DNA of 35,833 nucleotides from Kiritimatiellia bacterium. GTDB taxonomy: Bacteria; Verrucomicrobiota; Kiritimatiellia; RFP12; UBA1067. The notes below the pieces were generated by a model. It was not told the origin of the DNA, did no database searches, and was given only the letters and a program-made list of their open reading frames with translations. Shown piece after piece: positions 25,546 to 35,833 of this stretch. Position numbers and translations under genes: made by a program. Numbering within the stretch: position 1 is the stretch's first letter; each line of letters opens with the position of its first letter. The stretch lies in NCBI GenBank assembly GCA_017418445.1, contig JAFONM010000035.1, forward strand, positions 1 through 35,833, given 5' to 3'.

Positions 25546-25591
25546 AAAAAAAGATTGAACCTTTGCCGGTTTCGCGCATTGCTGTCATTGG

Positions 25592-27349
25592 ATGGAGATA
25601 TACGAAGAGATCCGCTGCGACAGGGAATCGGGCGCCAGGCGCCTGGTTTCGGAGTATTCCTCCAAGCTGATGTCCGCGGCCCTTATGCTCACCGCCAATG
25701 CCGCGGAGGCCGAGGATCTCGTCTTCAGGACCTTCGAGCGCGTCATCCTCAAGATCGACGACTACCGTCCCGTCGGCTCGTTCTACTACTGGATACACCA
25801 GATAATGCTCAACTTCCACCGGATGGACGTCCGCAAGGCGGCGGCCCGTCCGAAGCTCGTGGGCGTGGACAGGCTGCCGGAAACCCCGTCAGACGACGAT
25901 GACGACCTTTCGGGGAAGCTCGACTTCTCCGCGACGGCGACGGCCGTCCGCGAGGCGGTCCGGGAGCTGCCCGAGAAATTCCGCGAGGTGGTGGTCCTCA
26001 GGTACTTCGAGGAGATGGACCTCTTCGACATCTCGATCGTCACCGGACTCAACGTGGGGACGGTCAAGTCGCGCCTCCACTACGCCAGGGAGGCTCTGCA
26101 GGCGAAGCTTCGCGACAATGAGATATCCGAGCGCTTCGTCGCCCGCCTCGTCGACTCGACCCGACGCAGGACCGCGCGCAAGATCGCGGTCGCCGTCGGC
26201 GCGGCGCTTCTGGGGATTTCCGCGCTCGTCGCGGGCGCTGTGGCCGTCTCCGTCGGCACGTGCGGCCATTCGCGCGGCACGGGCTGCGGATACGGAGGAG
26301 GGTCCGCCTCGTCGATGCGGCAGGGCGGCGGACTCAAGGTGTCGCGGGACGGCACCGAGAAGGCGATAAGGAACGGACTCGAGTTCCTGGCGCGGACGCA
26401 GAGGGAGGACGGATCGTTCTCCGGCTCGTACGGGGAGTCCGCGGCGATTCCGGCCCTTGCCGGCATGGCGTTCCTCTCGAAGGGATTCCTCCCGGGGACG
26501 GAGCCCTACGGCGAGGCCATAGACAAGGCCGTCGACTATGTTCTCGCATGCGCCGACCTGAGTCCCGAGGCAAGGTTCCGCGGCTACATGGGCAGGCGCG
26601 GCGATGGCAGGATGTACGCGCACTCGATAGCGACGCTCTTTCTCTTCGAGGCGAGCGGAATCGTATCCCCGGAGCGTCAGAAGCGGCTCGACGAGGTCCT
26701 GCCGCTGGCGGTGAAGGTGATCGTGGACGCGCAGAACCAGCGCAAGGGAGGCGAGCACCTGGGCGGATGGCGCTACCAGCCGGACTCCAGCGACAGCGAC
26801 CTTTCCGCGAGCGGATGGGCGCTGATGGCGCTGAGGAGCGCGAGGCTGAACGGAGCTCAGGTTCCGGACGAGGCTGTCGAGAAGGCGGTCCTCTACGTGA
26901 AGCGCAGCTTCTGCGAGCGCAGCAGCAGCTTCTCCTACCAGGGGTCGGGCGGGAGCAACGGCGAGACGCTGACCGGCGCGGGCATCCTGTGCCTCGAGCT
27001 TTGCGGCAAGCACCTGGACGAGATGTCCCTCAAGGGCGCGCAGTACCTGCGCAAGACATACGCGAATGCGATTCCGCGGAGCAGTCAGAAATACTACGGA
27101 CTCTACTACACATCGCAGGGGCTCTTCCAGACGGGCGGAGACGCCTGGAGGGAGTTCTCGGTCTGGATGCACGACAACTTCATCCCGGCGCAGCAGCCGG
27201 ACGGCTCGTGGCGTCCCGACGGCGGGGCGCAGTCGCCGGCCTACGCGACGTCGATGACGATTCTCGCGCTCACTGTGCCGTGCCGCATGCTTCCGATCTA
27301 TCAACGCGACGAAACGGTCGACCTGGATTCCGAAAAGGAGGAAAAATGA
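25592..27349 (+). CDS. ECF sigma factor fused by a membrane segment to a squalene-cyclase-like toroid domain
   Basis: A 585-aa single open frame. Residues about 18-85 match ECF sigma region 2 (LMLTANAAEAEDLVFRTFER, then YYWIHQIMLN). Residues 117-172 match region 4 (LPEKFREVVVLRYFEEMDL, GLNVGTVKSRLHYARE). After a basic stretch (RRRTARK) comes one membrane helix (197-221), then a Gly/Ser/Cys-rich linker. The periplasmic part (250-570) is a prenyltransferase/squalene-oxidase-type repeat domain with QW-like elements: FLARTQREDGSFSG, GGWRYQPDSSDSD and QQPDGSWRPDGGAQSP. I infer a membrane-tethered sigma factor with an outside sensor. Its TGA overlaps the moxR ATG, so it probably controls or belongs to the MoxR/VWA operon. 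No anti-sigma gene is adjacent. Confidence 0.85.
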   Translation: MEIYEEIRCDRESGARRLVSEYSSKLMSAALMLTANAAEAEDLVFRTFERVILKIDDYRPVGSFYYWIHQIMLNFHRMDVRKAAARPKLVGVDRLPETPSDDDDDLSGKLDFSATATAVREAVRELPEKFREVVVLRYFEEMDLFDISIVTGLNVGTVKSRLHYAREALQAKLRDNEISERFVARLVDSTRRRTARKIAVAVGAALLGISALVAGAVAVSVGTCGHSRGTGCGYGGGSASSMRQGGGLKVSRDGTEKAIRNGLEFLARTQREDGSFSGSYGESAAIPALAGMAFLSKGFLPGTEPYGEAIDKAVDYVLACADLSPEARFRGYMGRRGDGRMYAHSIATLFLFEASGIVSPERQKRLDEVLPLAVKVIVDAQNQRKGGEHLGGWRYQPDSSDSDLSASGWALMALRSARLNGAQVPDEAVEKAVLYVKRSFCERSSSFSYQGSGGSNGETLTGAGILCLELCGKHLDEMSLKGAQYLRKTYANAIPRSSQKYYGLYYTSQGLFQTGGDAWREFSVWMHDNFIPAQQPDGSWRPDGGAQSPAYATSMTILALTVPCRMLPIYQRDETVDLDSEKEEK

Positions 27350-28371
27350 ACAGCAGGGAAATGAACTCCGGAGACGTGGAACTCGTGGAGAGGCTCCAGT
27401 CGAAGTACGCCGCCCTCAAGCGGGAGATGGCGAAGGCGATCGTAGGCCAGGAGGACGTGGTCGAACAGGTCCTCACGGCGGTCTTCTCGCGCGGACATGC
27501 GCTCCTCGTGGGCGTCCCTGGACTCGCGAAGACGCTCATCGTCAGGACGCTTTCGGAGGTGATGGACCTTGGGTTCCGCCGGATCCAGTTCACCCCCGAC
27601 CTCATGCCCGCCGACGTTACCGGGAGCGACGTCCTCGACGAGGACAAGTCCACGGGGACGCACTCCTTCCGCTTCGTCAAGGGTCCGGTCTTCACGAACA
27701 TGCTGCTCGCGGACGAGATCAACCGCACTCCGCCGAAGACCCAGGCCGCGCTCCTCGAGGCGATGCAGGAGCACAGCGTCACCGCCGGCGGCGTGTCGCG
27801 TCCTCTCCCGGAGCCGTTCTTCGTCCTCGCGACGCAGAACCCGATCGAGCAGGAGGGAACCTATCCTCTCCCGGAGGCGCAGCTGGACCGATTCCTCTTC
27901 AACATAACGGTGGACTACCCATCGCGCGAGGACGAGGTCGGGATCTTCACGAGCGAGACCGGCGACAGGGACGTCAGGCTCGAGAAGGTCCTTTCCGCCG
28001 AGGAGGTGATCGCGCTCCAGAAGGTCGTGCGGCGCGTCCCGATAGCGGACCACGTCGTCGACTACGTAGCGGACCTCGTCCGCGCGACGCGTCCCGCGGA
28101 TCCCTCCGCCCCCGCGTTCGTCAAGGAGATGGTGTCCTGGGGCGCGGGTCCGCGCGCGGGACTCTCCCTCATCGTCGCGGCCAAGGCGCGCGCGATCCTG
28201 AAGGGGCGTACGCACGTGATCACCGACGACATAAAGGCCCTGGCGCATCTCGTCATGCGCCACCGCATCGCGACGACCTTCAACGCCGAGGCCGCCGGAG
28301 TCACGACGGACGCCATAGTCGATCGCCTGCTCAGGGAAGTCCGCAGCCGCGAGGAGCTCGACGCGGAGTAG
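27346..28371 (+). CDS. moxR: MoxR-family AAA+ ATPase
   Basis: A 341-aa chaperone-like ATPase. Walker A is LLVGVPGLAKTLIVRTL, Walker B is MLLADEINRTPPKTQAALLEAMQE, sensor 1 lies in FFVLATQNPIEQEGTYPLPEAQLDRF, and the C-terminal lid region has MVSWGAGPRAGLSLIVAAKA. In characterised loci MoxR proteins act with VWA-domain partners to mature or remodel envelope proteins. The ATG has an excellent AAGGAGG (27335-27341) and overlaps the sigma/toroid stop. The DUF58 gene follows after 7 nt. Confidence 0.95.
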   Translation: MNSREMNSGDVELVERLQSKYAALKREMAKAIVGQEDVVEQVLTAVFSRGHALLVGVPGLAKTLIVRTLSEVMDLGFRRIQFTPDLMPADVTGSDVLDEDKSTGTHSFRFVKGPVFTNMLLADEINRTPPKTQAALLEAMQEHSVTAGGVSRPLPEPFFVLATQNPIEQEGTYPLPEAQLDRFLFNITVDYPSREDEVGIFTSETGDRDVRLEKVLSAEEVIALQKVVRRVPIADHVVDYVADLVRATRPADPSAPAFVKEMVSWGAGPRAGLSLIVAAKARAILKGRTHVITDDIKALAHLVMRHRIATTFNAEAAGVTTDAIVDRLLREVRSREELDAE

Positions 28372-28378
28372 TTCCCGG

Positions 28379-29296
28379 ATGGCGACGCCGGAATACATGA
28401 AGTGGCTGCCCGCCCGGACGATCGAACGTCTCGGGAGGCTCGAGTTCCTCGCGAGGGGAACGATGGACGGCTTCGTGTCCGGCAGGCACCGCTCCGCGCG
28501 AAAGGGCGCGAGCGTCGAATTCGCCCAGCACCGCGAATACGCGCCCGGCGACGACCTGCGGAATCTCGACTGGCGGCTCGTCGCACGCCGCCAGCGCTGC
28601 TACGTGCGCGAGTACGTGGACGAGACGAACCTCCGCGCGACGATACTCCTTGACGCCTCGGGGTCGATGTCCTACCGCGGCGACGTCGCCGCCGGCGGAC
28701 TCTCCAAGTTCGACTACGCGCGACGTCTCGCAGCCGCGCTCGCGTATGTGCTTATCCGCCAGCAGGACGCCGTGGGACTTGTCGCGTTCGACTCGAAGGT
28801 GAGGCTTTCAATGCCGCCCAAGGCGAGTCCTTCGCAGCTGAGGCACATCCTCGCGGGAATCGACGGACTCTCCGTCGGCGGCGAAAGCGATATCGCCGCC
28901 GTCCTCCACGAGGCGGCCGAGAGGACGCCGCGGCGCTCGATGGTTTTCATCATAGGCGACATGTTCGGCGACGCCGAGGCGATGCTCAGGGCGCTGCACC
29001 ATTTCCGCTTCCGCCACGACGAGGTGGCCGTGCTGCATGTCCTCGCGGAGGAGGAGGTCGAGTTTCCGTTCCGGGAAGCCTACCGCTTCGAGGACGCGGA
29101 ATCGCCCGCCTTCATGAACATCGATTCCCTCGCGCTCCGCAAGGGATATCTCGAGCAGTTCAACGAATACATGACGCGCCTCCATCGCGGAATGGGCGAG
29201 ATGCGCGTCACGCACGAGGTCGTCGACACGTCGCGTCCCTGCGAGGACGTCCTGTCGGACATCCTGGTCCGGTACAGCCAGACAAGGGGGATGTAG
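28379..29296 (+). CDS. DUF58 domain protein, MoxR partner
   Basis: A 305-aa soluble protein. The DUF58 core is EFAQHREYAPGDDLRNLDWR, followed by YVREYVDETNLRATILLDASGSM, which opens a VWA-like fold with a DxSxS metal site. VFIIGDMFGD and later strands complete it. DUF58 proteins are regular neighbours of MoxR and BatA-type proteins. The ATG at 28379 lies 7 nt after moxR and the next gene begins 4 nt after its stop, so these genes are probably one transcript. Confidence 0.92.
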   Translation: MATPEYMKWLPARTIERLGRLEFLARGTMDGFVSGRHRSARKGASVEFAQHREYAPGDDLRNLDWRLVARRQRCYVREYVDETNLRATILLDASGSMSYRGDVAAGGLSKFDYARRLAAALAYVLIRQQDAVGLVAFDSKVRLSMPPKASPSQLRHILAGIDGLSVGGESDIAAVLHEAAERTPRRSMVFIIGDMFGDAEAMLRALHHFRFRHDEVAVLHVLAEEEVEFPFREAYRFEDAESPAFMNIDSLALRKGYLEQFNEYMTRLHRGMGEMRVTHEVVDTSRPCEDVLSDILVRYSQTRGM

Positions 29297-29300
29297 AAGC

Positions 29301-32300
29301 ATGTCCTTCTTCGCCCCATGGATGCTTCTCGGACTGCTCGCGGCGTCGGTGCCGATCGTCCTGCACATGATTCGCCGCCGCAATTCGAACCGCATAGTCT
29401 GGGGCGCATGGCAGTTCCTGAACGAATCCCTCCGCCTGCAGAGGCGCAAGATGCGCTTCGAGGAGATTCTGCTCCTGATCCTTCGGACGCTCATTCTCGC
29501 TGCAGCGGCATTCGCCTTCGCGCGTCCGTTCCTTCCGGAACTCGCATTCTTCGGTTCCGGCGGCGGGGCGAAGGACGTCGTCATCGCGATCGACGCGTCG
29601 GGGTCGATGGGACTGCGCGACAAGGACGGCGCAGACACTTTCAGCCGCGCCATCGAGGAGGCCAGGGACCTCGTGGACCGCGCTCCGTCCGGAACGGCTT
29701 TCGGGATCGTCGTCGGGGACCGCGAACCGAAGATCCTCACTCCGACTCCGTTCACGTCCCGCCGCGAGATCCTCGATATTCTCGACGGACTCGAGCGTGG
29801 CGATTCGACGATGGATGTGCCGAGGACCCTCGAGGCGGCCGGAGCGGTCCTTGCCGCAGGGAATCTCCCGGCGAAGGAAATCGTGGTGTTCGGCGACGGA
29901 CAGGGATACGGTTGGAAGGCGTCGGACGCGAACGCGTGGCGCCGGGTCGAGAAGATCCTGACCCAGTCCGGAAGGCGCACGCCCGTCGTGTGGCGCACGA
30001 TCACGCGGACGGGCAAGGTCCGCAACGCGGCCGTCGTCTCCATCGTGCCTTCGCGGCGCATATTCGGCACGGACGGCCCGGTGTCGTTCAGCGTGGACGT
30101 CCTGAACTCGGGGTCCGAGCCGTTTTCGCCGGGCGAGCTTTCGTTCGAGGTCGACGGGCGTCGCGTCGCGTCGCAGAGCGTGGGGCAGATACTGCCGGGA
30201 CTCTTCCGCACCGTCACCTTCAGCCACACGTTCGAGAAGTCCGGACACCACGAGATCGCGACGTCGCTTTCGGCGCCCGACGACATAGCTTCAGACAACG
30301 CAGTCACCAACTCCGTGCAGGTGACGGACGAGCTCAAGGTGCTTCTCGTCGACGGCCGCACGGGAAAGAAGACCTTCGACCGGCCGTCCGCCTACCTCGA
30401 GGCCGCGCTCCGTCCGCAGCTCAAGGACGACAAGTCCGCCTATCTCGTCAGTCCGGTCGCCGCGAGACCCTCCGAACTCTACTCGACGAACGTCTTCAGG
30501 GACGTCGCGGTGACCGTCCTCGCCGGCGTCCCGTTCCTCTCCCCGCGCGCGGCGGAAAACCTGGCGAAATGGACGCATTCCGGCGGCGGACTCCTCGTCC
30601 TCCCCGATCCCGCGTGCGACGTCGGGTTCTACTCGAACTGGATGTGGCGCACGGAGCGTGTGATGCCTGCGACGTGGACGGGTTTCGAGCGCTTCCGCGG
30701 GAACGAGAAGCCGCCGACGGTGCGCGGCGCGCCTGTCGGCGGACGCATGGTCTTCGACGGAGCGGGCGTCGCCGGCACCGGCTCCGCAGATGTCGAGTTG
30801 ATGAGCGACGGCGCCGTTGCTTCGGTCTGCGGGCGGTTCGGCGCAGGGAGGGTCGGAATGCTCGCGATGCCGCTCGACCTCGAGTGGACGGCCTTCCCCG
30901 CGCGCCCCGCCTTCCCGTCATACGTACACGAGCTCGTCTACTCGCTCGTCTCCATGAAAAGCGTCGGAGAACTGCGCGACACGCGCTGGAGCGCGCGCGA
31001 GGGCGACGTCGCTCCGCTCACGCAGGACGAGGCGGATTCCATTGCGCCGTTCGCGGACCTGTCCTACGCGCGGGAGAAGGACGATACGCTTGCCGCGATT
31101 GCGGGGAAGGGCTTCGGCGTCGAGATCTGGCGTCCGCTCGCCATAACGGTCCTTGTCCTTCTGGTCCTCGAGCTGCTCGTCTCCTTCCGATCCGACCGTT
31201 CGCGCCTCGACGGCGTCCCGGTGCGGCGTCCGGTCCTGTTCACGATCCTGCGCGTCGTCTCGTTCCTTTCGATACTGTGGATGCTCCTCCACGTCGTGAT
31301 CGTCCACGAGCGTACGCGCAGGATTTCGCGCAAGGTCGCGGTCCTGGTCGACATGTCCGAATCGATGACCTACCGCAACATCCCCGACGGAACGAATCGC
31401 GTCTCGCGCTTCGACACGGCGACGAACGTCTCCGAGCGCCTGGAGTCCGCGCTGCACAGGAAGTACGACGTGGAGAGCTTCACGTTCGGCGGCGAGACCA
31501 CGGACTTCGCGGTCGCTCTCGAGGACGTGCGCGCGCGGATTCCGTCCGAGGAGCTCGCGGGCGCGGTCGTGGTATCCGACGGACGCGCCACGGCGGGCGA
31601 GAACGTGGACGCGATATCGCGCCAGTTCGGACGCCAGGCGGCGAAGATCGCGGGCGTGCTCGTCGCTGGCGCCACCAACCGCTGCGACGTCGCCATCGCC
31701 TTCGTCTCGTCCGCCGAGAACGTCTTCCTCGGGGACGACGTCAGGGCGTTCGTCGATCTGAGGGGCGAAGGGCTCAAGGGCTCGAAGGTCGTCGCGAAGT
31801 TCATGCTCGGCGACCGCGAGATCGGACGCGAGGAGCGGACGATCGACGCCGACGCATGGACCGGCTCGCTGCGCTTCACCGACAGGCCGGAATCCACGGG
31901 GGTGAGGCGCTACCGCATCGTCCTCGAGGTTCCGGAGGGCGACGCAGAGACGGCGAACGACGAGTGGCCGTTCGATGTCGCGGTGTCGGACGACCGCGTG
32001 AACGTGCTTCTTGCGGACCGTCGCCCGCGCTGGGAGTTCAGGTATCTCAAGAACCTCTTCTACGGACGCGACAAGTCGGTGAACCTCCAGTACTTCCTCT
32101 CGAGGCCGGACGTCTTCGGATCCGCCGCCGCGGCGAAAAAACCTCCCGCCGCGGACGCGAGGCGCAGGTTCGGGGATTCCGAGGCGGGCGCGCTGCCGCA
32201 GGACCGCGAGTCGTGGCGCCGTTTCGCCGTGATGATCTTCGGCGACCTTTCGCGCGAAGACCTGACTGACGAGGCGATCGAGGAGATCAGGTCCTCCGTC

Positions 32301-33356
32301 GAGAAGCGCGGCGCGACCGCGGTGTTCATCGCAGGTCCGGACAGCATGCCCGGCTCCTATGCCGGGACTGGACTTGCGGAGCTCCTCCCCGTTTCCTTCA
32401 CGAACGCGCAGGGGGGCGTTTCCGCGAAGTGGTCCGCAGAGCCGTATCGTCCCGTGATCACGGGTGCGGGACTCTCGCATCCGATAATGGAACTCGCGGC
32501 GGGTCCCGTCGCGAACAGGCAGGCGTGGGACGAGGGCGAGGACTGGTACGGAAGGCTCTCGGGAATTTCAGCCAGGACCGGCGCGGAGGTGCTCGCCTTC
32601 GCGAGCGACTCGACCGCGACAGAGGGGCCGCTCGTCGTCGTCCGCCACGTCGGGCGCGGCAGGGTGGTCTTCATCGCCTGCGACGAGACGTGGCGCCTGA
32701 GGTATCGCGTCGGCGACACGTACCACCATCGTTTCTGGGGCAACATCCTCAAGTGGGCCGCCGGCGCGCGTCTCAGGAGCGGGAACGCGTTCGTCCGCCT
32801 CGGAACCGACGGCATGCACTATGCCCCGGGATCCGAAGTAAAAGTGATGGCGCGTCTTGCGGACGAGGAGTCGCTCCCGGTGTCGGGCGCCGAGGTCTTC
32901 GCGGTCGTCGCCGATCCTGCAGGACACGCCACGCGCATTCGGCTCAGGGATTCCGAAAACGCCAACGGCGGCTACGAGGCGACGTTCGCGGCGACTGAGA
33001 CGCTCGGGCAGTACCGGATCGAGCTCGACGCCCCCGCGGTGAAGGCAAGGATCGGCGACTCGTGGCCAGAGAAGACGGAGGTCGGTTTCTCCGTCGGGAA
33101 CTCCTTCGCTCCGCTCGAATACGCCGATCTCTCGTCGACGCCGGAGGTCCTCGAAAGGATGGCGAAGCTCTCCGGCGGCACCGTCGTCGTGCCGGAGGAT
33201 GCGGAGAAGGAGCTTGCGGAATACTTCGGAGCCGGGCGCAGCGAGGTGACCGAGCAGGTGGAGAGCGACATCTGGGACAATCCGATCGCGTTCATCGTGC
33301 TTGCGCTCGCGATGGCCGCAGTCTGGATCTGGCGCAGGAGAAAGGGGCTCGCGTGA
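29301..33356 (+). CDS. Very large BatA-type double-VWA membrane protein, apparent fusion
   Basis: 1351 aa. Part 1 (1-630): BatA-like N-terminus with helices at 5-22 and 56-75, basic RRRNSNRIVWGAWQFL between them, a VWA domain with DASGS (98-102), an Ig-like region, a GATase-like domain (about 343-550), and a helix at 612-628. Part 2 (640-1351): helix 645-667, a second VWA domain with DMSES (684-688), a long beta-rich stretch, a second GATase-like domain (about 898-1155, VNVLLADRRPRWEFRYLKNLF to GRGRVVFIACDETWRLRYR), a beta domain, and a C-terminal helix (1327-1344). In PVC genomes these two halves are, to my knowledge, usually separate genes. It probably works with MoxR and DUF58 in the envelope. 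The frame is unbroken. Confidence 0.85.
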   Translation: MSFFAPWMLLGLLAASVPIVLHMIRRRNSNRIVWGAWQFLNESLRLQRRKMRFEEILLLILRTLILAAAAFAFARPFLPELAFFGSGGGAKDVVIAIDASGSMGLRDKDGADTFSRAIEEARDLVDRAPSGTAFGIVVGDREPKILTPTPFTSRREILDILDGLERGDSTMDVPRTLEAAGAVLAAGNLPAKEIVVFGDGQGYGWKASDANAWRRVEKILTQSGRRTPVVWRTITRTGKVRNAAVVSIVPSRRIFGTDGPVSFSVDVLNSGSEPFSPGELSFEVDGRRVASQSVGQILPGLFRTVTFSHTFEKSGHHEIATSLSAPDDIASDNAVTNSVQVTDELKVLLVDGRTGKKTFDRPSAYLEAALRPQLKDDKSAYLVSPVAARPSELYSTNVFRDVAVTVLAGVPFLSPRAAENLAKWTHSGGGLLVLPDPACDVGFYSNWMWRTERVMPATWTGFERFRGNEKPPTVRGAPVGGRMVFDGAGVAGTGSADVELMSDGAVASVCGRFGAGRVGMLAMPLDLEWTAFPARPAFPSYVHELVYSLVSMKSVGELRDTRWSAREGDVAPLTQDEADSIAPFADLSYAREKDDTLAAIAGKGFGVEIWRPLAITVLVLLVLELLVSFRSDRSRLDGVPVRRPVLFTILRVVSFLSILWMLLHVVIVHERTRRISRKVAVLVDMSESMTYRNIPDGTNRVSRFDTATNVSERLESALHRKYDVESFTFGGETTDFAVALEDVRARIPSEELAGAVVVSDGRATAGENVDAISRQFGRQAAKIAGVLVAGATNRCDVAIAFVSSAENVFLGDDVRAFVDLRGEGLKGSKVVAKFMLGDREIGREERTIDADAWTGSLRFTDRPESTGVRRYRIVLEVPEGDAETANDEWPFDVAVSDDRVNVLLADRRPRWEFRYLKNLFYGRDKSVNLQYFLSRPDVFGSAAAAKKPPAADARRRFGDSEAGALPQDRESWRRFAVMIFGDLSREDLTDEAIEEIRSSVEKRGATAVFIAGPDSMPGSYAGTGLAELLPVSFTNAQGGVSAKWSAEPYRPVITGAGLSHPIMELAAGPVANRQAWDEGEDWYGRLSGISARTGAEVLAFASDSTATEGPLVVVRHVGRGRVVFIACDETWRLRYRVGDTYHHRFWGNILKWAAGARLRSGNAFVRLGTDGMHYAPGSEVKVMARLADEESLPVSGAEVFAVVADPAGHATRIRLRDSENANGGYEATFAATETLGQYRIELDAPAVKARIGDSWPEKTEVGFSVGNSFAPLEYADLSSTPEVLERMAKLSGGTVVVPEDAEKELAEYFGAGRSEVTEQVESDIWDNPIAFIVLALAMAAVWIWRRRKGLA

Positions 33357-35833
33357 TGACGGGAATCGTCGGCAGTGCGATTGCAAGGTCGATAAGGCGC
33401 GATCGCGGCGTGAGGCTTCTCAAGGTCGCGTCGATCGCGTCGATCGCCGTCCTCGTCGCGCTCGCGGCCGTGATGGCCGTCGACGCGAGCCTGACGATTC
33501 TCGATCCGCGCGTCCGCTGGGCGATGAGCCTCGGAATCCTTGCAGTCGCGATCCTGTCCGGATTCCTCGCCACGCTCTACATGCGCCGCCATCGCCAGTC
33601 TCCGCGCTCGATGGCGAAGATGCTCGACTCGCGGCATCCGGAATTCCAGGAGCGTCTTTCGACCATGGTGGAGCTCTCGGGCAGGGAGAACGCCGGATTT
33701 TCGCGCGAACTGTTCGACGTGGTGTGCCGCAGGGCGGCGGACGACGCGGGGGCCGTCGTGCCGGAAAAGGAGTTCCCGTTCGGCGGCGCGATTCGCATCG
33801 GATGCGTGCTCCTCGCCATGCTGCTTGCTCTCCTCGTCTCCGTCGTCGCCGCGCCGGGCTTCGCGGGACGGCTTCTCGTCCGCGCGATCGCACCGTGGGC
33901 TGACGTCGGGAATGTCCATTCCGGGGACATCGAGGTGAAGCCGGGCGACGTCGTGGCGCTTGCAGGCGACGTGATCCGCATAGAGGCGAAGCTGAAGGAT
34001 TCGACTGTCGGCAGGACCAGGATACGCATCTCGAGGAAGACGCTCCTCGGCTGGACCGAGGAAGCCGCGGAGGACATGGCCGACGGCGTCTACGAGACGA
34101 CGGCGGACATCAACGACCGTGAATGGAGATATCGCGTCACCTCCGGTCCGGCCGTCACGCGCTTCTACCATGTCCGCGTCTCCGAGCCGCCGCGCTATCG
34201 CGAGTTCTCGGCGACGGTCGACTATCCGGAGTACACAGGCTGGGCGTCGACCGTCGTGTCGAACGAGGAGGTCCGCTCCATCAGCGCGATAAACGGCTCT
34301 CGCGTGAAGTTCAGTCTCTCGGTGGACGACGACATCGTATCGGAGCTCAATGTCGGCGGGAAGAAGGGGGTCTTCGAGTACGAGATGGTCTCGAACCGGA
34401 CGTCTTTCTGGTCGCTCGATCTCGTCAACCGCGACGGATTCCGGACGAAGACCGGCAAGATGCCGCTTGCGAGCGTCCTCGACCAGCCTCCGTCGGTCGT
34501 CGTCGAGAAGCCGCGCGGGAAGCTCCCGAAGCTTCCGCCCTACGCGAAGATTCCCGTTGAACTCACTGTCAGCGACGACGTGTGCGCGCTCCATCCGGAC
34601 CTCCTGGCCTCGGTCGACGGAGGCGAGACGGCGAATCTGGGCCCGATAGACTCGTTCGTCCGCGGCGGCGAGCGGCTCTGGCGCGGAAAGACCGAGATCG
34701 ACATGTCGTCCATGGACCTCGGCGAGGCCCGCCGCGTCAGGTTCATGTTCGTCGTACGGGACGCATGCCCCGCGGAGTTCTACGGTCCGCACGCCACGAC
34801 GTCGTCAGTCATAGACGTCGAGCTTGGCGCGAGGGAGTGGGGACTCAGGGTCGCGGACGTGAAGGAGCAGGCGAAGACGGTCCGCGAACTTGCGAACGAG
34901 GCGAAGAACCGCCTCAGGGGCGCCAGACAGATCGCCGAGCAGGCGAAGCGCGAACTGGAGCATAACGACAAGATTTCCGAGAACATGGACCGCACGAGCG
35001 AGCGCGCCGCGCACGAACTCAACGAGGCGGTGAAGCGTCTCGAGGAACTGCGCGAAACGCTCCGCAACGACGAGCGCTTCCGTCCGATGCTTCGGAACAT
35101 CGAGTCCAACGCAGTGGAGAGGGCGGAGGCCGCGCTGCGGAAGATGGAGGCGGCGCGCTTCGAGGGGAGGTCCGACCGGGAGAAGTCCATCCAGGAGGCG
35201 ATGCCGGAGATGAAGAAGGCCGCCGAGGAGCTCGATCGGTTCGAAAGGGATCTTGAAAACAGGAAGGGTGCGCTCGAGAAGATGGAGAAGACGCGCGACC
35301 TTGCCGACCGCCAGAAGGCGCTCGCGGAGGAGATGAGGAGGATTCTCGCCGAGCGTCCGCACGACCAGGCGAAACTCCTTGCATGGAAGCAGATGCAGGA
35401 GGAAACGGAGCGGCGTGCCATGGAGCTCTTCCATCAGCTGAATCGCGACAAGGATGTCGACAAGGCGATGCACGGGATGCGCGAGGCCGCGAAGGATGCG
35501 GACCAGGCGGCAAAGGCCGCTCAGAAGGCGGCGGACGAGGCCCGCAAGGCGGCGGAGGCCGCGCGCCAGGCCGAGATGGCTGCAAATCCCGCAGCCGATA
35601 AGCAGCAGAGACAGAGTGAGAAGCAGCCGAATCAGCAGCAGGGCCAGCAGAATCAGCAGCAGGATCAGCAGAATCAGCAGCAGGGCAAGCAGAATCAGCA
35701 TCAGGTTCAGCAGAGTCAGCAGCAGGGGCAGCAGAATCAGCAGCAGGGCCAGCAGAATCAGCAGCAGGGCCAGCAGAATCAGCAGCAGGATCAGCCGAAT
35801 CAGCAGCAGGGCCAGCCGAATCAGCAGCAGGGC
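33356..35833 (+). CDS. DUF4175-like membrane protein, 3' end beyond the window
   Basis: 826 codons are open to the window edge. Three helices (about 23-42, 55-76 and 146-166) frame a cytoplasmic stretch (RRHRQSPRSMAKMLDSRHPE). A periplasmic beta-rich part (175-480, with REFSATVDYPEYTGW) follows. Then comes a long charged coiled coil (about 497-745, rich in Glu, Lys, Arg, Ala) and, from residue 757, perfectly phased heptads of the type QQNQQQG. This layout resembles the low-complexity DUF4175 proteins found after MoxR/VWA genes. ATG 33356 touches the previous stop; GTG 33353 in frame is also possible. Its role is unknown, perhaps a stalk in the periplasm. Confidence 0.75.
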   Translation, partial: MTGIVGSAIARSIRRDRGVRLLKVASIASIAVLVALAAVMAVDASLTILDPRVRWAMSLGILAVAILSGFLATLYMRRHRQSPRSMAKMLDSRHPEFQERLSTMVELSGRENAGFSRELFDVVCRRAADDAGAVVPEKEFPFGGAIRIGCVLLAMLLALLVSVVAAPGFAGRLLVRAIAPWADVGNVHSGDIEVKPGDVVALAGDVIRIEAKLKDSTVGRTRIRISRKTLLGWTEEAAEDMADGVYETTADINDREWRYRVTSGPAVTRFYHVRVSEPPRYREFSATVDYPEYTGWASTVVSNEEVRSISAINGSRVKFSLSVDDDIVSELNVGGKKGVFEYEMVSNRTSFWSLDLVNRDGFRTKTGKMPLASVLDQPPSVVVEKPRGKLPKLPPYAKIPVELTVSDDVCALHPDLLASVDGGETANLGPIDSFVRGGERLWRGKTEIDMSSMDLGEARRVRFMFVVRDACPAEFYGPHATTSSVIDVELGAREWGLRVADVKEQAKTVRELANEAKNRLRGARQIAEQAKRELEHNDKISENMDRTSERAAHELNEAVKRLEELRETLRNDERFRPMLRNIESNAVERAEAALRKMEAARFEGRSDREKSIQEAMPEMKKAAEELDRFERDLENRKGALEKMEKTRDLADRQKALAEEMRRILAERPHDQAKLLAWKQMQEETERRAMELFHQLNRDKDVDKAMHGMREAAKDADQAAKAAQKAADEARKAAEAARQAEMAANPAADKQQRQSEKQPNQQQGQQNQQQDQQNQQQGKQNQHQVQQSQQQGQQNQQQGQQNQQQGQQNQQQDQPNQQQGQPNQQQG
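35624..35833 (+). repeat. 21-bp tandem repeat coding Q/N-rich heptads
   Basis: Ten consecutive 21-base units fill 210 bases and continue past the window end. The core unit is CAGCAGAATCAGCAGCAGG plus two bases, read as QQNQQQG with variants QPNQQQG, QQNQQQD, KQNQHQV and QQSQQQG. Gln is always CAG and Asn always AAT, unlike the GC-rich codon use around it. Such a repeat can expand or shrink by slippage without shifting the frame. Confidence 0.95.

Follow-up and report, generated by a model that had tools for sequence, protein, structure and literature searches.

The 35,833-nucleotide contig JAFONM010000035.1 of a Kiritimatiellia bacterium (assembly GCA_017418445.1), analysed here over its whole length and called the window, raises the question of whether the long reading frame at 29301..33356 is truly a single gene and, if it is, what two such proteins joined in one chain would do next to a moxR gene. 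The frame lies on the forward (+) strand, as do all features described below, and encodes 1351 amino acids (aa): a BatA-type protein with von Willebrand factor A (VWA) and glutamine amidotransferase-like (GATase1-like) domains, followed by a VWA/GATase1-like/MG2-like protein. The source genome (G000) is partial (1,386,563 bases, 77 contigs, 64.9% complete), the window being its contig C6. From the open frame, its relatives and the trees, we confirm that 29301-33356 is one intact gene, a real and inherited fusion. We propose, with a probability of about 0.6 for the reading as a whole, that this real fusion belongs to a double-VWA envelope complex that is worked by MoxR and coupled to a membrane-tethered sigma factor.

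First, we considered whether the single frame could be an assembly or sequencing artefact, as the earlier note had feared for a stop and a start hidden between residues 630 and 640. The frame is unbroken from the ATG at 29301 to the TGA at 33356, its start (MSFFAPWML) is also present in the relatives L038-L041, and the guanine plus cytosine (GC) content at third codon positions stays between 0.79 and 0.93 with no shift near residues 630-640. We searched the 161 genomes of the order and 288 genomes of the phylum, all figures referring to the matches listed. In the order, at least 71 genomes have some match and at least 14, the window's included, have a full-length, stop-free single frame; three of these, G012, G129 and G033, are near-copies. 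The full-length relatives are 45-59% identical, and for 12 of the 13 others, longer loci or named records were read and show the frame kept. Fused parts ended by contig edges occur in G130, G003 and G133. Related genomes thus do not always carry two genes, the other outcome that would have refuted the reading in the earlier note. Readings of this kind do need checking, since the long frames of G038, G386 and G201 were really two frames with one stop codon between them. Nevertheless, independent assemblies share the full frame, which excludes a sequencing error, the junction residues are conserved among the fused rows and the codon-position GC is unchanged, so that the probability of an artefact is next to negligible.

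In the phylum, a match was found in at least 146 of the 288 genomes, and only G000 and G012 are full length among the matches listed. Five long frames were also tried as convergent fusions, G386 (1745 aa), G201 (1539 aa), G038 (1409 aa), G354 and G388, and all five turned out to be two frames once cut at stop codons. This check covered these five, G221 contig 6 (1374 aa) being among the other long frames listed.

Elsewhere, the two halves are encoded by two genes that mostly lie side by side. We collected 61 neighbouring same-strand pairs, in 23 of which a candidate start overlaps the stop (offset -3), and the order moxR-DUF58-N-C-coiled-coil is conserved across many families of the phylum. 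The closest two-gene relatives are 40% identical to the second half and 35% identical to the first. Both forms are found together in at least six genomes (G000, G112, G119, G128, G130 and G132). Indeed, contig C73 of the window's own genome (L073, 4676-16408) carries a second operon in the two-gene form. The partners are on different contigs in G139, G140, G160, G046 and G053. In G139 (L142, L143) and G140 (L144, L156), the partner genes stand alone on separate long contigs, while moxR, DUF58 and the coiled-coil gene are located elsewhere.

To place the fusion among these genes, we built one tree per half, each from 84 rows cut cleanly at the junction, of which 15 are fused in the first-partner set and 14 in the second-partner set; L155, a fused row ended by a contig edge, was left out as its junction motif was unmatched. 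Both half-trees group the fused rows into a single clade, with a support of 100 in the Shimodaira-Hasegawa-like approximate likelihood ratio test (SH-aLRT), and in the second-partner tree this clade is placed among two-gene rows from the window's order. These are quick LG+G4 trees with SH-aLRT support only, and deep placements are uncertain owing to long branches outside the fused clade. Together with the at least 14 full frames in 161 genomes and the 61 neighbouring pairs, the single clade per tree bears out the proposal that two adjacent genes were fused.

The other origin that had been put forward, duplication, holds in a deep sense only. The halves are homologous: aligned by profile (hhalign), they share 422 columns at 18% identity (probability 99.8, E 1.4e-28), and this deep homology could suggest a recent duplication inside a single gene. 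However, BLASTP between the halves found nothing (best E 1.4), and the 18% identity between them contrasts with the 40% and 35% that they share with their own two-gene relatives. As the profile alignment is significant and the BLASTP search is not, the halves are old paralogues that were fused later. Both paralogues are already separate genes across the phylum, and a recent duplication is therefore very improbable. Judged by these trees and alignments, the fusion arose once, from two long-separate partners.

To the junction (31122..31304), partner 1 contributes its final predicted helix (about residues 608-630), which is followed by a basic loop and by the predicted second helix of partner 2 (about residues 645-668). 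A profile of the junction from 14 fused rows matched 69 first-partner C-termini with a best E of 1.9e-17, through the helix and basic tail, and matched 68 second-partner starts more weakly (best E 2.7e-6), mainly through the second helix. This comparison shows that the fusion retained the last predicted helix and basic tail of partner 1 and just one predicted helix before the VWA domain of partner 2. By simple hydropathy, five helices are counted in 12 of 14 fused rows, where the earlier note had seen two internal helix pairs, and each half has membrane helices. Separate first partners have an even number of helices before the VWA domain in 62 of 65 cases, mostly with one more at the end, and separate second partners have an even number in 53 of 70. 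End-to-end joining would flip the second VWA domain to the opposite side of the membrane, and the loss of one helix would prevent that. From these helix counts and the positive-inside rule, we infer that both VWA domains are periplasmic.

The first half opens with a BatA/two-anchor N-terminal helix pair (residues 1-76; 29301..29528) that exceeds the cut-offs of both Pfam BatA (56.5 bits against 25.9; E 3.8e-15) and TIGR02226 (72.8 bits against 23.05). It is followed by VWA domain 1 (residues 93-201; 29577..29903; Pfam VWA_2 1.6e-13, 51.7 bits, cut-off 27); with moxR and DUF58 genes adjacent, the BatA-like VWA protein expected beside moxR is indeed there. The two metal-site motifs of the DxSxS type that had been noticed at residues 98-102 and 684-688 read DASGS and DMSES, respectively. 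At the first site, the D, S, S and D residues are kept in 15/15 fused rows. Next come a CARDB-like beta-sandwich (residues 261-333; 30081..30299), which scores slightly below the Pfam CARDB cut-off (0.00027) and has a Foldseek match to 2kl6 from a low-confidence model, and GATase1-like domain 1 (about residues 345-556; 30333..30968), identified by profile to 3soz and 3rht and by hhalign to the second copy.

In the second half, VWA domain 2 (about residues 677-790; 31329..31670) is recognised by its conserved DxSxS-T-D residues: D, S, S and D are present in 84/84 rows, and the threonine column holds T in 79/84 and S in 5/84. Pfam finds no VWA domain in this half, its sole matches being sub-threshold ones to MG2 (1174-1244) and DUF7408. 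GATase1-like domain 2 (about residues 897-1132; 31989..32696) was found by profile to 3rht (9.6e-8) and by hhalign to the first copy. The MG2-like domain (residues 1174-1244; 32820..33032) lies below the cut-off (Pfam MG2 0.00035) and matches 2p9r, and Pfam MG2 is matched in 9/15 second-partner rows. The half ends in a C-terminal helix. Foldseek hits were relied on for the VWA, CARDB and MG2-like parts only.

The two GATase-like regions proposed earlier are supported by profiles of 15 rows for each partner: the solved (GATase1)-like structure 3rht is matched by the second-partner profile at E 9.6e-8 and by the first-partner profile at 8.9e-4, and both half-profiles also match 2gk3 and 3soz, as well as the BatB VWA structures 3ibs and 4jdu. 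Pfam GATase1_like itself is matched in 1/15 second partners. No invariant cysteine column was found in the 84 rows of either half, all columns being counted with the nucleophile position unmapped; the richest columns hold cysteine in 48 rows (in a membrane helix) and in 42 rows (in the second GATase1-like region, where the window has serine). The lack of an invariant cysteine column suggests that neither GATase1-like domain is likely to be an amidotransferase, both being probably non-catalytic.

Upstream of the fused gene lie genes for a MoxR AAA+ ATPase (27361..28371; Pfam AAA_3 1.3e-61) and for a DUF58 protein with a VWA-like domain (28379..29296; Pfam DUF58 1.5e-42, VWA_2 3.4e-13); the latter and a coiled-coil gene flank the fused gene. 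The MoxR frame matches Pfam bpMoxR with 37.0 bits (cut-off 27), as would be expected if the operon were a MoxR-VWA conflict system acting in defence. AAA_3 nonetheless scores far higher (206.7 bits), PADLOC models match 0/5 operon proteins and the gene order is conserved across many families of the phylum, all of which make a defence system quite improbable. The fused gene stands beside moxR and DUF58 in 14/16 fused loci, L150 and L151 being the exceptions. Near these two fused genes outside the moxR operon, large right-handed beta-helix proteins are encoded (L150 7047-14858; L151 7098-9446).

Three features came to light beyond the earlier note: the two-gene form in the same genome, the absence of a PA14 domain and of extra helices from the fused form, and a sigma-helix-toroid gene that heads the operon. 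PA14 is matched by Pfam in 7/15 first-partner rows and not in the window's fused protein. The gene at the head (25592..27349) encodes a 585-aa protein composed of an extracytoplasmic function (ECF) sigma factor (about residues 1-175), a predicted membrane helix (about 198-216) and a toroid domain with weak matches to squalene-hopene cyclase. Sigma regions 2 and 4 are both present (Pfam Sigma70_r2 and Sigma70_r4_2; TIGR02937 70.7 bits, cut-off 42.9), and the protein has one hydropathy peak, from residue 198, preceded by an arginine-rich stretch. A homologue lies upstream of moxR in 14/16 fused loci, that of L039 being partial at a contig edge.

Two-gene loci encode the toroid in a gene of its own, and no sigma hit was found in 18 of their upstream stretches. 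Of 20 downstream stretches, 11 have the toroid gene after the coiled-coil gene, an order also seen in L074 and L157; among the nine stretches without it, L179 shows no operon gene at all. After the coiled-coil gene of the four fused loci with at least 1.4 kilobases (kb) beyond (L038, L147, L148 and L149), no toroid gene was found. Nine separate toroids begin, by eye, like a signal peptide and six of them exceed the hydropathy threshold, so that the separate toroid of the two-gene operons is apparently exported. Given these starts, the sigma domain and helix of the fused lineage would occupy the place of a former export signal. By coordinates, a toroid gene without a sigma domain stands directly before moxR in G086 and G087. 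This order (G087 contig 84; G086 contig 211, with L096 and L103) is possibly an intermediate arrangement. The toroid belonging to the C73 operon is probably the gene at the start of contig C60 (L222, 2-1723).

A candidate ECF-type promoter, TTGAAC-N13-GCGCATT (25555..25580), lies 11 nucleotides 5′ of the ATG of the sigma gene. The pattern occurs once in the window and in none of 100 shuffles. A similar site (TTGAAC-N13/14-GCGCATT) precedes the sigma gene in 9/10 loci, six exact and three with an altered -10 part; in L149, the one locus without it, a copy lies 1.77 kb upstream and precedes a gene whose product is apparently secreted. In 58 genomes of the genus, we counted 27 pattern places in 21 genomes against 2 for the reversed pattern. 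Six of these places were read on: two, on G132 contig 4 and G030 contig 100, precede genes whose products are apparently secreted, and the remaining four had no convincing partner gene. Among the similar sites before genes of this kind are those at L240 (from 1123) and L149 (from 139). The candidate site before the sigma gene fits autoregulation of the operon, short of proof.

How does this cluster compare with known systems? In NorQ-NorD and RavA-ViaA, the VWA partner is single and is not known to carry a membrane anchor. The fused gene differs by placing two VWA domains, predicted to be periplasmic, in one membrane protein. The likeness to NorQ-NorD (PMC13036017) and RavA-ViaA (PMC10585395), as far as the available text of these papers goes, is a MoxR ATPase with a VWA partner; NorQ was proposed to twist and stretch NorD (PMC13036017). 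The Bat (Bacteroides aerotolerance) operon, with MoxR, BatA and BatB, likewise unites moxR and two-anchor/VWA membrane proteins in one cluster. Here, unlike in the Bat operon, the second partner has an MG2-like domain as well as a GATase1-like one, the cluster includes genes for a coiled-coil protein and a toroid, two VWA/GATase1-like proteins are fused and a sigma factor heads the operon. The two-gene moxR-DUF58-N-C-coiled-coil operons, that of C73 included, hold homologous genes in the same order as the window; they differ in that many first partners have two extra helices and PA14, the toroid is separate and no sigma gene was seen in the 18 upstream stretches. The sigma-toroid protein resembles IutY, in which an ECF sigma domain, a membrane helix and an outer part share one chain, and ECF factors with such a membrane-bound extension can be released by proteolysis, according to the accessible part of that report (PMC8999054). 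Unlike in this sigma/anti-sigma fusion, the outer part here is a cyclase-like toroid with separate relatives in MoxR/VWA operons. Our literature search found no paper on MoxR-DUF58 operons in Verrucomicrobi-, none joining von Willebrand, glutamine amidotransferase and MoxR in Planctomycet-, and none on an ECF sigma factor with a transmembrane domain and a C-terminal squalene-hopene cyclase, which is no proof that none is in print.

Fusions of bat genes are already known: the available text of a Leptospira biflexa deletion study describes a batB-batC fusion in that species (PMC3557215). This bears on whether the fusion, although real, could be neutral, a coupled pair having simply lost its boundary with its activity unchanged. 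In many two-gene pairs the genes touch or overlap, and bat gene fusions are mentioned in the same text for L. biflexa, Borrelia burgdorferi, Spirochaeta thermophila and Francisella tularensis (PMC3557215). Against this, the PA14 domain and extra helices have also gone from the fused form, full length is kept through the clade and the sigma-toroid fusion accompanies most loci. We regard a neutral fusion as a possibility of some weight, though a minority one. The architecture itself, that is the gene structure, domains, single origin, operon order and sigma-toroid association, is directly observed.

We can propose the following working of the MoxR-driven double-VWA complex, in which the topology, the 1:1 complex, the action of MoxR, sensing by the toroid and release of the sigma factor are what we infer from the architecture. 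The fused protein would form that half of a MoxR machine which lies in the envelope. MoxR and DUF58 would work from the cytoplasm, and the movement would travel via the helices to the VWA pair, which may grip and release a periplasmic client through its metal sites. The fusion can reasonably be expected to fix the ratio of the putative VWA pair at 1:1, and it would keep the pair joined where the operon breaks up. The toroid may read the state of the periplasmic complex and so control the tethered sigma factor, either through conformation or by letting proteolysis set it free, as in IutY. The sigma factor could then transcribe its own operon from the TTGAAC-N13/14-GCGCATT site. A bolder version, which we consider doubtful, is that of a self-contained transmembrane signalling machine: MoxR would work the single-chain VWA pair to hold or release the toroid end of the tethered sigma factor, and the state of the envelope client would thereby be converted directly into transcription, both of the operon and of certain secreted proteins. 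In that case, the two-gene operons would be this machine working on the free toroid as client.

Several observations weigh against such a MoxR-worked complex coupled to a sigma factor. In the study of L. biflexa cited above, deletion of bat genes gave no phenotype, as far as the available text goes (PMC3557215). The threonine of the VWA 1 site is T in 3/15 fused rows and lost in 12/15. The helix bookkeeping is imperfect: the remaining two of the 14 fused rows give four and three helices, and odd counts occur in 17/70 second partners. AlphaFold models of the halves, built from 5-row alignments, are poor (mean predicted local distance difference test scores of 48.3 and 53.0), too weak to resolve the GATase1-like parts or to define any interface between the halves. 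The sigma gene is split over two frames in one fused locus (G130; L154). In G143, sigma, moxR and DUF58 are on a different contig from the fused gene, and in G108 the contig of the fused gene has no moxR, DUF58 or sigma gene, and the toroid stands by itself at a third place; these two arrangements imply that the fusion and the sigma coupling are separable. G135 has a sigma-moxR-DUF58 head on a contig of 3,526 bases, with no fused gene among the matches listed. Finally, no more than 7/27 pattern places in the genus precede the sigma gene.

In this lineage of rumen bacteria, a two-gene pair is now one protein, in a cluster headed by a second unusual fusion. The job of Bat-type moxR/VWA operons is called elusive in the available text of the L. 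biflexa study, where a role in aerotolerance or redox stress was also unsupported (PMC3557215). The fusion of two subunits is independent evidence of their joint work, and the helix count across the junction limits the possible topologies. If the toroid reports to the sigma factor, the activity of the TTGAAC promoter could serve as an assay of the MoxR/VWA complex. The fusions may thereby give a handle on the job of a widespread and poorly understood cluster.

The last gene of the window (33356..35833) encodes a coiled-coil, glutamine-rich membrane protein, whose frame is open to the contig end and whose homologues occupy the same place in other loci. Its ATG shares one base with the stop of the fused gene. 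The long glutamine/asparagine-rich repeat at 35560-35833 is the end of this protein at the contig edge.

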